DNA from: Fibrobacter sp.
GTDB taxonomy: Bacteria; Fibrobacterota; Fibrobacteria; Fibrobacterales; Fibrobacteraceae
NCBI GenBank assembly: GCA_024398875.1
Contig: JAKSIJ010000002.1
Span: forward strand, 186,001 to 250,000
Direction of reading: 5' to 3'
Length of the DNA: 64,000 bases
Part shown: in pieces, positions 6,807-37,676 of the stretch
How the letters are laid out: the number at the start of each line of letters is the position of its first letter
Position numbering within the stretch: position 1 is the stretch's first letter
Position numbers and translations under genes: made by a program
Notes under the pieces: generated by a model
Told to the model about the DNA's origin: nothing
Database searches by the model: none
The model's input: the letters and a program-made list of their open reading frames with translations, nothing else

Positions 6807-6827
6807 GGCTTTCCCTGAGGGAAAGCC
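6807..6827. terminator. Bidirectional hairpin terminator
   Basis: A perfect 9-bp stem with a 3-base loop lies between the convergent barrel-protein gene and purC. Six A residues on its left serve as the U-tract for minus-strand transcripts; a short TTTT lies 5 bases beyond its right side. Confidence 0.72.
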
Positions 6828-6866: not shown

Positions 6867-6899
6867 TTAAAGTTCAGGCTGCTTGCCGGTGAGGCGCAC
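6867..6899 (-). pseudogene. Stranded copy of the purC 3' end (last ten codons plus stop)
   Basis: Read on the minus strand, this stretch encodes VRLTGKQPEL-stop, exactly the last ten residues and stop of the functional purC gene that ends at 6959. Nine of the ten codons differ synonymously. Here the codons (GTG, CGC, CTC, ACC, GGC, AAG) match the codon style of the purC body. The functional gene's terminal codons (GTT, AGA, ACA, GGA, AAA, CCA) do not. The simplest reading is that this is the original tail, displaced by the palindromic element between the two copies. It has no start and is not a gene by itself. Confidence 0.85.
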
Positions 6900-6999
6900 G
6901 TGTCATCCCGTACTTGATACGGGATCTGCCTGTTGAATTTCAACAGGCAAAATTTTTGTTAGAGCTCTGGCTGTTTTCCTGTCAGTCTAACAAAAATTT
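6900..6999. repeat. Palindromic element inserted at the purC 3' end (three hairpins)
   Basis: Three hairpins stand side by side. The first (6905-6925) pairs ATCCCGTA with its complement across a 5-base loop. The second (6928-6948) pairs GCCTGTTGA with its complement across 3 bases. The third has perfect 14-bp arms at 6950-6963 and 6986-6999; its right part lies in the final codons of purC and its left part just beyond the stop. The recoding of the purC tail starts where the right arm starts. No open reading frame is present. The second hairpin followed by AAAATTTTT could also act as a plus-strand terminator. Confidence 0.7.
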
Positions 7000-7843
7000 C
7001 CACGTACTTGTCGAGGGTGTTCTTCACCACGTCGGCAGGAATTTCCGGACCCGGGTAGCACTTTCCCCAGTCCAAGGTTTCGAGCCAGTCGCGGATGTAC
7101 TGCTTGTCGAAGCTTTCCTGGTTCTTGCCCACCTGGTACTTGTCGGCAGGCCAGTAGCGGCTGGAGTCCGGAGTGAGGACTTCGTCGATGAGGATGGTTT
7201 CGCCATCGATTTCACCAAATTCGAACTTGGTGTCGGCGAGGATGATGCCCTTGGAGGCGGCGTAGTCGCGGGCCTTGGTGTAGATTTCAAGAGACATGTC
7301 GCGGAGGGTTGTTGCCACCTTTTCGCCAACGATGTCGAAGGTCTGCTCGAAACTGATGTTTTCGTCGTGACCCACATCCGGCTTGGTGCTGGGCGTGTAG
7401 AGCGGCTTCTCCAACTTCTGGCAGAGCTGCATGTTGCTGGGGAGCACGTGACCGCAGATGCGGCCCGTCTTCTGGTAGTCCTTCCAGCCGGAACCCACGA
7501 TGTAGCCGCGGACGATGCATTCCACGGAGTGGCGGTTGGCCTTCTTCACAATCATGGAGCGGCCGCGGAGGTAGTCGGCGTGCTTCTTCAAGACTTCGGG
7601 ATATTCGTTCACGTCGGCGGTGATGAGGTGGTTCTTCATGCCGAGGTGCTGGAACCAGAAGAGGGACAGCTGGTTCAGGATCTTGCCCTTGCCCGGAATG
7701 GGGGTGGGGAGGACCACGTCAAAGGCGGAGAGACGGTCGCTGGCGACCATCAGGAAGCTGTCGCCCAGGTCGTACATGTCGCGTACTTTACCCTGGTGGA
7801 ACAGCGGAACTTCAGTAATCGGGGTATCAAATTTTAAACTCAT
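6959..7843 (-). CDS. purC: Phosphoribosylaminoimidazole-succinocarboxamide synthase (SAICAR synthase)
   Basis: This 294-residue cytoplasmic enzyme joins aspartate to CAIR in purine synthesis, using ATP. The N-terminus has the family HQGKVRDMYDLGD segment and the SDRLSAFDVVLP motif. The middle has the SAICAR-synthase signature IVRGYIVGSGWKDYQ, and LADTKFEFG with a metal-binding region follows. Length matches the long form of the family. The final ten codons use rare-looking synonyms compared with the rest and form one arm of an inverted repeat that covers the stop codon; an older copy of the tail lies at 6867-6899. No strong ribosome site is seen before the ATG at 7843. Confidence 0.95.
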   Translation of the reverse strand: MSLKFDTPITEVPLFHQGKVRDMYDLGDSFLMVASDRLSAFDVVLPTPIPGKGKILNQLSLFWFQHLGMKNHLITADVNEYPEVLKKHADYLRGRSMIVKKANRHSVECIVRGYIVGSGWKDYQKTGRICGHVLPSNMQLCQKLEKPLYTPSTKPDVGHDENISFEQTFDIVGEKVATTLRDMSLEIYTKARDYAASKGIILADTKFEFGEIDGETILIDEVLTPDSSRYWPADKYQVGKNQESFDKQYIRDWLETLDWGKCYPGPEIPADVVKNTLDKYVEIFVRLTGKQPEL

Positions 7844-8883: not shown

Positions 8884-9025
8884 GTATAAGTGGGGAAAAG
8901 AAATTTTCTAGCGAAGGGACGTAAGTCACTAAGCAAAACAATCCACAGACCACGAAGTGGTCGAGGACCCGTTTTGCGTGTGAGCTTACGCCCGGAGCTT
9001 AGATGAAAGCTTCGATTACTTATAC
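8884..9025. repeat. Structured repeat unit A downstream of the GH116 gene
   Basis: The unit is closed by an 8-bp inverted repeat, GTATAAGT (8884-8891) and ACTTATAC (9018-9025). Inside is a long helix: GTAAG, CAC and GCAAAAC (8921-8939) pair with GTTTTGC, GTG and CTTAC (8971-8989), separated by internal loops T/AG and TAA/GT. The tip is a perfect 6-bp hairpin with a GAA loop (8948-8962). The 17-base word ACGGGTGGTATAAGTGG at its left (8877-8893) recurs exactly 170 bp later at the left of unit B. No gene is visible in 8855-9233. Confidence 0.78.
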
Positions 9026-9036
9026 AACAGAGCGAA
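9016..9036 (-). pseudogene. Copy of the GH116 gene's last six codons plus stop
   Basis: On the minus strand this reads FALLYK-stop, the same peptide end as the functional gene (stop at 9234-9236), with two synonymous changes (GCT for GCC, CTG for TTG). Sequence further upstream no longer matches the gene. It forms the right arm of unit A, as the true gene end forms the right arm of unit B. Confidence 0.75.
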
Positions 9037-9053
9037 ACCTGAAAATACGGGTG

Positions 9054-9243
9054 GTATAAGTGGTTGTAAAGGGGAACGAGGTGAGTCGCTAAGCGGACAA
9101 TAAAGGAGCGAAGCGACGTCGTGCGCAAAGCGCTTTCCCCTTCGCCTCGGTTATGCCTGTAAATAAATTTACAGGCGCAACGCTCGGCTTGCAGGGCAAT
9201 GTCCGCGTGCGAGCTTACCTCGTGAACCGGAACTTACTTATAC
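9054..9243. repeat. Structured repeat unit B overlapping the GH116 3' end
   Basis: Built like unit A. Closing arms are GTATAAGT (9054-9061) and ACTTATAC (9236-9243); the right arm is the gene's own last codons and part of its stop. The inner helix pairs GTGAG, CGC and GCGGACA (9081-9099) with TGTCCGC, GCG and CTTAC (9200-9218), with the same internal loops as unit A but different paired bases. The tip is larger and includes a perfect 10-bp hairpin at 9155-9176 with an AA centre. The flanks of that hairpin match the element after the OmpA-family gene at 37221-37265. Confidence 0.78.
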
Positions 9244-12200
9244 AACAAGGCGAAAACCATGCCAGGGCGGAAGTACTTGCCCGCGGTATACTTTAGCGCA
9301 GTGCTGTGCATCAGCGTGAACAGAGCTTCCACATCCACCTTGTTTGCCTTGGCAATCGACCCGAAAGCCTTTGCAAAAGCAGGAACGGTGCGGGGGAGCT
9401 TGGGGCTGATGCGGCTATCCACCTGGAGAGCGCCCTTTGCGAGAAGTTCCTTGTGCATCTTGGCGGCTGCAGCAGGAGTGAGTCCGAAGGCCTTCGAAAG
9501 CGCTTCCGGATGGAGGCGGCAGGAACCGTTGAATCCCTCTGGTGCGGCGAACGGAATGCGGGCCTCGTCGTAGAGGTTCGTAATCATGGAATCGCCGAGA
9601 GCGGCGGCTTCCGCCACCATGCCGTGCATCATGCAGGCGGTCATAATGCTGTACTGGATGCCAATCCAAACGTCGTGCGCCTGGAAGTTGAATTCGTCCA
9701 GAGGTTGGCCATCTTTACGGACCAGGTTTGCGGCGCCAATGAGCGGGCTGTTTGCCTTATAGTTTGTCTTGAACACGACTTCAAGATTCTTCTTGGCCTT
9801 CTTGCCGTCGGTAATGGGCTTGAGGCCAAGGAGACGGAGGTAGGTGTCTGCCAGCATGGTGTCGGCGAAGACATCATCGCAGTCGTTACTGACTTTCGCT
9901 TCCCAAGACTTGGTGAAGGCTTCCTTGCACTGAGCGGTGAGCCAAGCCTTTTTGAGACTGCGGAGCTCATTCTTGGAAAGTTCCACGTCAGAGGGAATGT
10001 CGGCGGAATTGAGCCAGGCGTTAATGGCCTTCACTGCACCCTTGGGGCATTCGGGAAGTTCCAGAGTGCCCTTGACGGCCGCTGCCAATTTCGGCAACTT
10101 GTCTACATTCACATCCTTCATTTCCATAGGTGTCACGAAGAAGTGGAAGTAGCCGCCCTTTTCATCCCAGAGGGCGTCATCGAATTCCTTGTTGGCGGCG
10201 TCGGACATGGAGTTCCAGCGGTCGGCCTGCTTCTTGTCGCCGAGGAGTTCTGCAATCTTTGCGGCAGCACGGAGGCCTGCAATCCAGAGGGAACCGCAAT
10301 AGACGGAAATGCCGTAGCTGCAGAGGTTGTCGAAGGTATCGTCTGTGCCGTGGGTGAGGGGGAAGTTCTCGCCTTCGTTCACCATCTTTTCCAAGTATTC
10401 CATGGAGGCGTAAACCGCTTCTTTGCAATCCTTCAGCACTTGGAGATTCTTGGTGGTCACATAGTGGCGGAGCACCATGAGCACATACTTGGGAGCCAGA
10501 TCCTTCCATTCCTTCACGTTGTGCCAATCGTAGGCATCGGGTTCAGCATCAAAGGGACTGCCCAAATCGTGAATCACGGCGCCATAGACGGCACGGGGAC
10601 CTTCCAGTTTTGGGTCCGGGAGGTCGGCGAATGGGTGGTTCACGAATTCGTGGTGGCGGCGGCGGTTCTTATTGACGGCGAGAATGGCGTCGCCAAAGCG
10701 CTTCATGGTAATGCCATCCAGGCGGGGCATCAAGGCGAGAAGGCTGAAACTGCCGTAGAAGTAAACGTCCAGAGAGTTGAAGAAGGGATAGTCGGCGCAT
10801 TCGCGGACGAGGAAGCGGTCTTCCTTATCCCACACGGTGGCTTCGGCGAGGAAGCTGAGGGTGTTGATGGCTAGGCTCTTGAATTCCGCCTGTTTTGCTG
10901 CGGACTTGTAGAGCTTTGCTGCTTTTGCCTTCGGGACGAGGGCTTCAAACGCCTTCAGGCGAGCGTCGAACTTTTTGTCGGCGGCGAGAGCTTCCAGAAG
11001 CATGGCGGTAACACGACCGTAAGCTTCCGGATAGAAGGCAGTGTACTTCTTCTGGCTGGTGAGTTTTACCAGCTTGATTTCGGGGAAGTCCAGCACCATG
11101 TTGAACTGGAAGCTGACCTTCTGCTTTGGCTTGAGAACTACGGTTGCGGCAATGGCGCCGGCGATGGTTTCGCGACCGCTATAGACGTTCTTCACGAAGG
11201 TGCTGGAGAGGCGGCCGCTCTGGAGTGCGCCCTTCACGATGCTGGCGGAATCGGCCTGATAGAAAACGGGCTTGGTGGAAACGCAGAGGTTGTCCTTCGG
11301 GTTCCAGGCGACGCTTATGCCCATGCAGCCGTTGAAGTCACTTTCGGCGAGAGGCTTCTCGTTGAAGTATTCAATGCCGCGGATCTGACGTCCGTCGCTA
11401 ATCTTCTTATCAAACTGCACTGCCTTCGGGTTCTTGGCCATGGGCACCAGCACAAAGCTGGAATCCTGCACGCCTTGGCGGTCTTTGCGGGCGTTGTAGC
11501 CGCAGAGGTTGTCCTGCACTTGCACGATGGTGATTTCGCGGGTATCCTTCGTCGTGTTTTCGAGGGTGAAAACTGTAGCGTTCACCGGCAGGCTAGAGAG
11601 GCGTTCATCGCCGGGAGTCACATAGCTGGACTGGGTCTTGGTGATTTGCACGCCCTTGCTCTGGTACTTGGTTTCGCTTACCGGATAGAGGGCCGTGTAT
11701 TGCATTTTCGCAGCATCAAAGCCGTCTTCGCCCAAGAACTTGGTGTCGTTTGCCCAGGCGGCAGTGAGGGCTCCCTTGCTTGCAATCTTTTCGCCCACAA
11801 CGCCATCAAAGAAGTCGATGAGGAGGTTGCGGTTCAGTTCTTCGACCTTCACACCCTTCTTTGCCATGAGGGTTGCGGTGCGGTCGCTCCACTGGATGTG
11901 CCAGCGTTCAAAGGCGGCCTTGTTGGCGCTAAAGAAGGATTTGTCAGAAAGTGTTTTGTTGAGTTTGGCTTCCGCCTTCTTCTGGTCGGCGATTTCAGCG
12001 GCGCCAAAGAGAACTTCACCGTTTGCGGTGGTGAGGGCGTACTTGCCGAGATGGGTGCCGAAGCTCGCCTGATTGAAGATGACCAGCGGGGACTTTTCGC
12101 TAATGACGGATTCGCGGAAGAAGAAGTTGTTGAAGCGGAGGTCTTCCGGCTTTTCCGTGCGGACCTGAACGCCAGGCATCACGTTCATCACGGGCGTTGT

Positions 12201-12380
12201 GCCTGCGGGAGTTGACGTAAAAGTGGAGCCGATGCCGCCCACTGCAATACCAGTGGTGGAGGGCGTGGTTGAAAGCGGGGTATACCAGGGCTGGATGAAT
12301 TCAACAGCAAGGCCTGGGGTCATGAGTTTCTGGACTGAACCGGACATCTTTGCGCCGGCGAGATATTCTTTTGTGCTCAT
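9234..12380 (-). CDS. GH116-family (GBA2-like) beta-glycosidase, cytoplasmic
   Basis: This 1048-residue protein resembles glycoside hydrolase family 116 (bile-acid beta-glucosidase type, with beta-glucosidases and beta-xylosidases). Family-like stretches include GIAVGGIGSTF in the N-terminal domain, CADYPFFNSLDVYFYGSFSLL (about residue 528), YDWHNVKEWKDLAPKYVL, HGTDDTFDNL with GISVYCGSLWIAGL (about residue 680), and QAHDVWIGIQYS. The acid/base is probably an aspartate in DDTFD and the nucleophile the glutamate in RECADYP; that alignment is from memory. The ATG at 12380 is preferred over one at 12470, being preceded by ATGGATT and matching the family start. No signal peptide is seen, so it would act on imported oligosaccharides. 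A GH94 phosphorylase was considered and fits less well. Confidence 0.72.
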   Translation of the reverse strand: MSTKEYLAGAKMSGSVQKLMTPGLAVEFIQPWYTPLSTTPSTTGIAVGGIGSTFTSTPAGTTPVMNVMPGVQVRTEKPEDLRFNNFFFRESVISEKSPLVIFNQASFGTHLGKYALTTANGEVLFGAAEIADQKKAEAKLNKTLSDKSFFSANKAAFERWHIQWSDRTATLMAKKGVKVEELNRNLLIDFFDGVVGEKIASKGALTAAWANDTKFLGEDGFDAAKMQYTALYPVSETKYQSKGVQITKTQSSYVTPGDERLSSLPVNATVFTLENTTKDTREITIVQVQDNLCGYNARKDRQGVQDSSFVLVPMAKNPKAVQFDKKISDGRQIRGIEYFNEKPLAESDFNGCMGISVAWNPKDNLCVSTKPVFYQADSASIVKGALQSGRLSSTFVKNVYSGRETIAGAIAATVVLKPKQKVSFQFNMVLDFPEIKLVKLTSQKKYTAFYPEAYGRVTAMLLEALAADKKFDARLKAFEALVPKAKAAKLYKSAAKQAEFKSLAINTLSFLAEATVWDKEDRFLVRECADYPFFNSLDVYFYGSFSLLALMPRLDGITMKRFGDAILAVNKNRRRHHEFVNHPFADLPDPKLEGPRAVYGAVIHDLGSPFDAEPDAYDWHNVKEWKDLAPKYVLMVLRHYVTTKNLQVLKDCKEAVYASMEYLEKMVNEGENFPLTHGTDDTFDNLCSYGISVYCGSLWIAGLRAAAKIAELLGDKKQADRWNSMSDAANKEFDDALWDEKGGYFHFFVTPMEMKDVNVDKLPKLAAAVKGTLELPECPKGAVKAINAWLNSADIPSDVELSKNELRSLKKAWLTAQCKEAFTKSWEAKVSNDCDDVFADTMLADTYLRLLGLKPITDGKKAKKNLEVVFKTNYKANSPLIGAANLVRKDGQPLDEFNFQAHDVWIGIQYSIMTACMMHGMVAEAAALGDSMITNLYDEARIPFAAPEGFNGSCRLHPEALSKAFGLTPAAAAKMHKELLAKGALQVDSRISPKLPRTVPAFAKAFGSIAKANKVDVEALFTLMHSTALKYTAGKYFRPGMVFALLYK

Positions 12381-12543
12381 AATAAATCCATGAGATGGAG
12401 GGTTAAATTTACGGAGAAAATAGTAGCATTTTTGCAAAAATTGCAATGGCATTTCGCGCGAGTTTGTCATTCAAAGCGGTAAATCGAAGGATTGGGAAAA
12501 CATACTTTTCTACATTGTGGAGAGTGGAAGCAAAGGATTTTTC

Positions 12544-37274: not shown

Positions 37275-37302
37275 TTAATAATTAATAATTCAAAATTCAC
37301 AA

Positions 37303-37676
37303 TTAGTGCTTCGCACTCATTTTGACTTCGGCTCGGAAGTGCCCGAGCAAGCTCGGTCGTTTCACTCGCCTCGTCAAAATTCAAAATTACCTCGGGAGAG
37401 TTCTTCGCCCGAGGTTTAATTCATTATTCAGCATTCTGCATTCAGCATTAGTTCCCCGCCCGATGCCTCTCATACTTCATACTTCATACTTAGTGCTTCG
37501 CACTCATTTTGACTTCGGCTCGGAAGTGCCCGAGCAAGCTCGGTCGTTCCACTCGCCTCGTCAAAATTCAAAATTACCTCGGGAGAGTACTTCGCCCGAG
37601 GTTTAATTCATTATTCAGCATTCTGCATTCAGCATTAGTTCACCGCCCGATGCCTCTCGTACTTCATACTTCATAC
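37303..37676. repeat. Tandem 187-bp repeat (two copies)
   Basis: Copies 37303-37489 and 37490-37676 differ at four bases. Each holds a TTC-triloop hairpin with stem AGTGC, an outer helix ATTTTGAC/GTCAAAAT, the hairpin CCGAGC-AA-GCTCGG, a 7-bp hairpin CCTCGGG/CCCGAGG, the simple sequence ATTCAGCATTCTGCATTC, and a terminal run of CATACTT units. The spacer 37184-37683 contains no credible gene; short open frames in it are the repeat read through. Confidence 0.88.

Follow-up and report, generated by a model that had tools for sequence, protein, structure and literature searches.

An ORF-less palindromic element in the 3' region of Fibrobacter purC, with a re-spelled copy of the gene's tail

The purC gene of a Fibrobacter genome harbours a palindromic element of three hairpins that sits ten codons before the stop of the gene. 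Hairpin 1 carries a synonymous version of the displaced tail, and the native tail is stranded beyond hairpin 3. The locus lies in a window of 64,000 nucleotides (contig JAKSIJ010000002.1, positions 186,001 to 250,000; genome G000), the whole stretch of DNA analysed here. The element appears to have spread between species recently, and to have inserted at least four times. Drawing on four purC copies only, the reading that best fits is probably that of a small mobile, ORF-less palindromic element which homes to the purC 3' end and which is, in a broad sense, rescue-carrying. What moves it is a matter of inference, and any specific enzyme in that role is less probable than the broad reading itself. 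The features of the locus are as follows.

6959..7843, minus strand: purC (SAICAR synthetase), 294 aa, functional (ORF, with PF01259 at E 3.5e-74)
6959..6991, minus strand: functional re-spelled tail, VRLTGKQPEL-stop, in codons common to the four element carriers
6901..6999, minus strand: element of three adjacent hairpins, 99 bp, with no ORF of its own
6950..6999, minus strand: hairpin 1, with a 14-bp perfect stem AAATTTTTGTTAGA/TCTAACAAAAATTT
6927..6949, minus strand: hairpin 2, with the core CCTGTTGA..TCAACAGG
6902..6926, minus strand: hairpin 3, a copy of the widespread GTCATCCCG..CGGGATC repeat
6867..6899, minus strand: stranded native tail, 33 nt, an intact VRLTGKQPEL-stop outside the reading frame in use
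6807..6827, minus strand: site resembling an intrinsic terminator, past the stranded tail

The gene is present as a single copy in G000. A sequence-only reading of this DNA had proposed that VRLTGKQPEL-stop is encoded twice, with nine of ten codons differing, and both copies are indeed read as described, the functional tail at 6991..6959 as GTT AGA CTG ACA GGA AAA CAG CCA GAG CTC TAA and the second copy at 6899..6867 as GTG CGC CTC ACC GGC AAG CAG CCT GAA CTT TAA. CAG is the only sense codon in common, and the two tails begin 92 bp apart. Chance can be set aside as the source of the duplication, because the match extends over all ten residues and the stop (11/11) and the same arrangement recurs in three other species; the duplication of the purC tail with a re-spelled copy is thus confirmed. 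As the terminator-like site lies beyond the stranded tail, the purC transcript would probably contain both tails. The estimate of an insert of about 100 bp devoid of a reading frame also held, at 99 bp.

Among 80 genomes of the genus, purC was found in 75. Readable 3' ends, with 120 nt or more of sequence beyond them, numbered 70, of which a few are one sequence present in two collections. A second tail is present in four of the 70 (G000, G007, G011 and G065), such that the two-tailed state is far from universal among relatives. In the remaining 66 there is one tail only, spelled like the stranded copies (GTN CGY CTY ACY GGC AAG CAG ...), as the sequence-only reading had predicted for empty sites. 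Conversely, the series GTT AGA CTN ACA GGN AAA CAR CCN GAR CTC TAA occurs in all four carriers and in no other readable purC. One empty site, that of G021, is followed by a flank which matches the sequence behind the stranded tail of G007. Since the tails of empty sites match the stranded style, and given this flank, the stranded copy is taken as native and the tail in use as having come with the insert. The stranded tail of G000 differs from the tails of its empty relatives G059 and G021 by two silent changes and no missense change. The suggestion that an element entered purC near its end and brought an equivalent tail is therefore supported, empty sites being found in relatives.

The two borders of the insertion are of different kinds. 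On the left, the border lies at or slightly upstream of 6999, and its exact position is not fixable because the start of the element, GAAATTTTT, resembles the native GARATYTTC. Counting back from the last base of the stop codon, the nearest difference between the purC genes of G011 and G065 lies at 77 nt, and the ten tail codons are preceded by approximately 40 nt of identical purC sequence; this tract includes an ACC codon where most near relatives have ACT. On the right, in the direction of purC, the border follows GATGACA at 6901, a sequence with which free-standing copies of the hairpin-3 repeat in the genus also usually end. All four carriers return to native sequence at one and the same codon (...GATGAC[A/G]C|GTN), with GTG, GTT, GTT and GTA as the first native codons. 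Judged from these sequences, the insertion appears to be homologous on its left side and fixed on its right. A target-site duplication, ACGTG, was considered in G000 and rejected, the other three carriers being without it.

Under the mobile-element reading, the left join would be made by homology with purC through the approximately 40 nt of shared sequence, and the right join would always fall immediately ahead of the valine codon of the native tail. The right joint may be set by a recombinase or endonuclease whose gene lies elsewhere, as in homing in trans; collaborative homing with a free-standing endonuclease would let an ORF-less element move in this way. Alternatively, folded single-stranded DNA may be transferred, with the base of a hairpin defining the right joint. 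The re-spelled tail would keep purC working and, since its sequence differs from that of the native tail, would escape deletion through direct-repeat slippage.

Passive exchange of alleles could give the same picture if its right joint were guided by structure. In its ordinary form, such homologous exchange (by transformation, for example) would have brought in the diverged 3' end of purC from a Fibrobacter that is AT-richer and unsampled. The hairpins would then be the immobile 3' UTR of this donor, and the right joint a product of microhomology (CGT). The AT-rich codon style of the functional tail and the shared tract on the left are in keeping with this, as are the partly similar codons of a distant Fibrobacteraceae purC (L073; AGA CTC .. 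GGA AAA .. CTC TAA). Ordinary exchange is nonetheless unlikely: the same right border appears four times despite different first native codons, which is not predicted for a 33-nt tail, the hairpins are maintained by compensated changes, and a second gene, encoding a GH116-like glycoside hydrolase, shows the same asymmetry.

The hairpins themselves are strongly structured. The arms of hairpin 1 occupy 6950-6963 and 6986-6999; the loop contains the tail codons and the right arm the stop codon, and this stem is identical in all four copies. The G000 stretch folds with a z-score of -6.6, none of 200 shuffles being as stable, and the four copies range from -6.1 to -8.7. Where stems vary across the copies, all four changed pairs are compensated and none is broken, which none of 500 shuffles equalled; two of these pairs are in hairpin 2 and two in hairpin 3, and hairpin 3 of G007 has gained one extra pair by insertion on both arms. 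Covariation of the hairpins, a point beyond the sequence-only reading, is thus indicated by four sequences, for which the compensated stems are suggestive of maintained palindromes; palindrome-perfecting repair could be another source of them. Hairpin 3 fits a REP-type palindrome, GATCCCxG..CxGGGATGACA, and hairpins 1 and 2 fall outside that match. The GTCATCCCG..CGGGATC repeat is common across the genus (L216-L241), occurs once in G000 at the stringency used, and, as hairpin 3 alone, has exact matches of 25-26 bp in Sphingobium and Novosphingobium plasmids. On the plus strand, at 6927-6955, hairpin 2 and the T run of hairpin 1 together form a terminator-like sequence facing a convergent DUF4421 gene.

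Structure of this kind might instead point to a selected RNA or DNA signal, serving to protect the 3' end of purC mRNA or to terminate transcription from the convergent gene, with a spread that was adaptive rather than selfish. The strength of the folding, its compensated changes and the terminator-like character of the opposite strand would suit such a role, which is nevertheless improbable given that 66 of the 70 readable relatives are without the element, that the GH116 insert differs in both sequence and structure, and that a terminator-like site in the direction of purC exists downstream anyway.

The scatter of carriers bears on the age of the insertions. In a tree of purC bodies the carriers are dispersed among empty relatives: G000 groups with the empty G059 and G021 (support 100/99), while a further supported group, with weaker inner branching, unites G011 and G065 with the empty G060, G047, G068 and G024. 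Only 1 of 94 bases distinguishes the element of G011 from that of G065, against 23 of 123 four-fold sites (19%) in the purC bodies of the two; the binomial probability of at most one difference in the element is ~6e-8 at the body rate and 9e-4 at half that rate. Their stranded tails show six silent differences and one missense, and at least six silent among seven changes would have P = 0.002 if the tails had been neutral since a shared insertion, after which mainly missense decay would be expected. The stranded tail of G065, GTACGTCTCACT, has its first four codons spelled as in G061, G047 and G068, whereas that of G011, GTTCGCCTTACC, is spelled as in G060. Near-identity of the element, lineage-specific stranded tails and the scatter of carriers together suggest that the insertions were recent and separate and that the element travelled between species. 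Going beyond the sequence-only reading, the insertion thus seems to recur in at least four lineages, with an element near-identical between diverged hosts.

A single old insertion that the clade received from its ancestor by vertical descent, followed by many precise losses, fits these data poorly and is very improbable. The elements of G000, G007 and G011 do diverge by 11-20 of 94 bases, which is not below what a mixture of constrained and free sites could give over the divergence of the hosts. However, the native tail is intact in all empty relatives, the stranded tails differ almost only silently, unlike a copy long untranslated, the elements of G011 and G065 are too alike, and many precise losses would be needed on the tree.

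Donors, carriers and enzymes were also sought. Patterns for the first two hairpins and for the tail, both exact and degenerate, turned up no second copy of the purC element in the 80 genomes of the genus, and BLAST within its own genome gave only weak partial matches inside unrelated genes. A covariance model of hairpins 2 and 3 scored the four purC copies at 89-99 bits and the next best at no more than ~41 bits, the runners-up inspected being hairpin-3-type repeats; each carrier genome thus has one copy, at purC only. Apart from hairpin 3 alone, the element is absent from viral contigs and from phage and plasmid collections and, with no second copy in the genus, no donor or carrier is visible. 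In Rfam nothing came near a gathering threshold. Across the carriers, correlation with RVT_1, Y1_Tnp and Phage_integrase yielded no candidate for moving the element. RVT_1 is present in G011 and G065 and gave no match in G000 (99% complete) or in the incomplete G007, which speaks against resident retrohoming. The Y1 transposase has one shortened match in G000, three in G065 and none in G007 or G011, the last two assemblies being 82-85% complete and that of G065 99%. One Y1 (IS200-type) gene, G065:C5:106298-106654, lies ~3.4 kb upstream of the purC carrier allele of G065. Tyrosine recombinases are uninformative, as they are present in all genomes of the clade.

Integrative elements that target gene 3' ends by means of site-specific recombinases restore the gene end on insertion. 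The locus might accordingly be read as the scar of a larger element, a prophage or island with its attachment site at the 3' end of purC, which brought an attachment sequence that restored the gene and later lost its interior; this restoration and the ubiquity of tyrosine recombinases in the clade are what can be said for it. Elements of that type span kilobases and have an integrase gene and an identical attachment core, none of which is seen in the purC insert. Nor was an integrase evident beside purC in clade loci, going by the sequence prefixes of the adjacent ORFs. A long identical core is missing from the two tails, which have only a few bases in a row in common, no larger form was found, and the same 99-bp scar in four lineages would be unlikely, so that this origin is very improbable. 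An artefact of assembly or binning, suggested by a 90-contig source assembly, is negligible, because the two-tailed purC is found in four different, independent assemblies with lineage-specific stranded tails, two of them (G000 and G065) being 99% complete.

The mobile-element reading may be set beside several known systems. Rickettsia palindromic elements are bacterial palindromes of ~100-150 bp that lie inside coding genes. They add in-frame residues within proteins at many loci, whereas the purC element replaces a tail. With REP/BIME-type palindromes and the GTCATCCCG..CGGGATC repeat there is direct kinship in hairpin 3, which is a copy with the same GATGACA end; the ordinary repeat, however, stands alone and has no coding sequence, and the purC element carries a tail. 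It differs from a MITE in that an inverted repeat is found at one end only (hairpin 1), with no consistent flanking duplication and no dispersal to unrelated sites. An integron attC interpretation, suggested by GTTAGAC/CTCTAAC at the borders, was discarded, since the first position is a misfit and the interior consists of three separate hairpins.

Closer parallels come from mitochondria. Mobile ORFs resupply the C-termini of atp6 in Allomyces and of atp6, atp9, cox2 and nad3 in Glomus; the inserted and native C-termini are near-synonymous, the native ones resemble those of close relatives, and a horizontal origin was inferred (PMC3630166). The sequence-only reading had drawn the comparison with atp6, and its architectural side is apt: insertion occurs near the 3' end of a conserved gene, a foreign C-terminus is in use and the native one is stranded downstream, so that such resupply is the closest architectural match to the purC element. 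The defining endonuclease ORF, in contrast, is absent from the purC insert: atp6-type inserts are mitochondrial, ~0.5-1 kb in size and equipped with a LAGLIDADG or GIY-YIG ORF (PMC3630166), and the purC element is bacterial, 99 bp long and ORF-less. Repetitive hairpin-forming and double hairpin elements occur in fungal and sponge mitochondria (PMC2800124). Together with yeast mitochondrial GC clusters, these share with the purC element short ORF-less palindromes, hairpins in a row, compensatory stems, presumed mobility and, in some cases, a position inside genes; the closest physical match is the class of repetitive or double hairpin elements (PMC2800124). They are not described as carrying a replacement gene end, and they occupy many sites where the purC element has one (PMC2800124). 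The purC element thus works like both the atp6-type ORFs and the mitochondrial hairpins, and on the features tested is a member of neither.

Large integrative elements and the endonuclease-bearing elements of mitochondria already provide examples of coding-sequence rescue; if the mobile reading is true, it would here be accomplished by a gene-less element of 99 bp in a bacterial chromosome. Silent changes near gene ends, commonly taken as neutral drift, could then be footprints of insertion, and the empty and filled alleles of Fibrobacter would offer a directly testable system for the movement of palindromes with one homologous and one fixed junction. A simple screen for stranded, re-spelled C-terminal peptides downstream of genes is also suggested.

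A second gene in the window, picked up because it adjoins purC, has an analogous element, a point that lay beyond the sequence-only reading.

9234..12470, minus strand: GH116-like glycoside hydrolase gene, the second instance of the arrangement
9254..9234, minus strand: functional tail, FALLYK-stop
9037..9233, minus strand: palindromic insert ending in CACCCGTATTTTCAGG
9016..9036, minus strand: stranded FALLYK-stop copy behind the insert, with two codons re-spelled

This insert is unrelated to the purC element in sequence and structure. A search for FALLY(K), which demanded an intact peptide and so missed decayed copies, found tail copies in nine genomes. Their right borders are closely similar (CCGTTTTTGCGG[A/T]TG|TTCGCT and variants). 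Between G009 and G024 the element differs at none of 133 bases, against 32 of 69 four-fold sites (46%) in the gene bodies, and the stranded tails differ silently; on the left the identity extends ~40 nt into the gene, and on the right it ends where the stranded tail begins. A long stem in G024 has the tail codons as its outer arm (folding z -5.0). Tandem duplication also acts at this locus, as the tail copies of G047 and G059 are identical in DNA.

It is conceivable, if somewhat doubtful, that the two loci are independent members, within one genome, of a class of bacterial ORF-less hairpin elements, each homing to the 3' end of a particular gene and bringing a re-spelled rescue copy of the stretch that it displaces. 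Such a class might, by the same tentative analogy, be viewed as a natural counterpart of a home-and-rescue gene drive. Among 374 gene ends (~464 kb of G000 and G065), the best other stranded tail was one of six residues, that of the GH116 gene, in a scan whose overlap filter dropped purC itself and possibly other genes too. No third convincing case was found in this ~464 kb plus further loci; KLAK in L192 was rejected as an unconvincing, identical five-codon repeat. Stems between gene tails and downstream arms were conspicuous only for purC and the GH116 gene.

In G070, G082 and G020 (L272, L273 and L274) the intact GH116 gene is followed, at a distance of ~1-3.5 kb, by extra C-terminal pieces. 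Those of G070 and G082 were rejected as cases of this arrangement and are read as fused remnants of duplicated, internally deleted genes. Elsewhere in the window, at 37300-37640, an intergenic direct repeat with a spacing of ~185 bp contains AGTGCTTCGCACTCATTTTGACTTCGGCTCGG.
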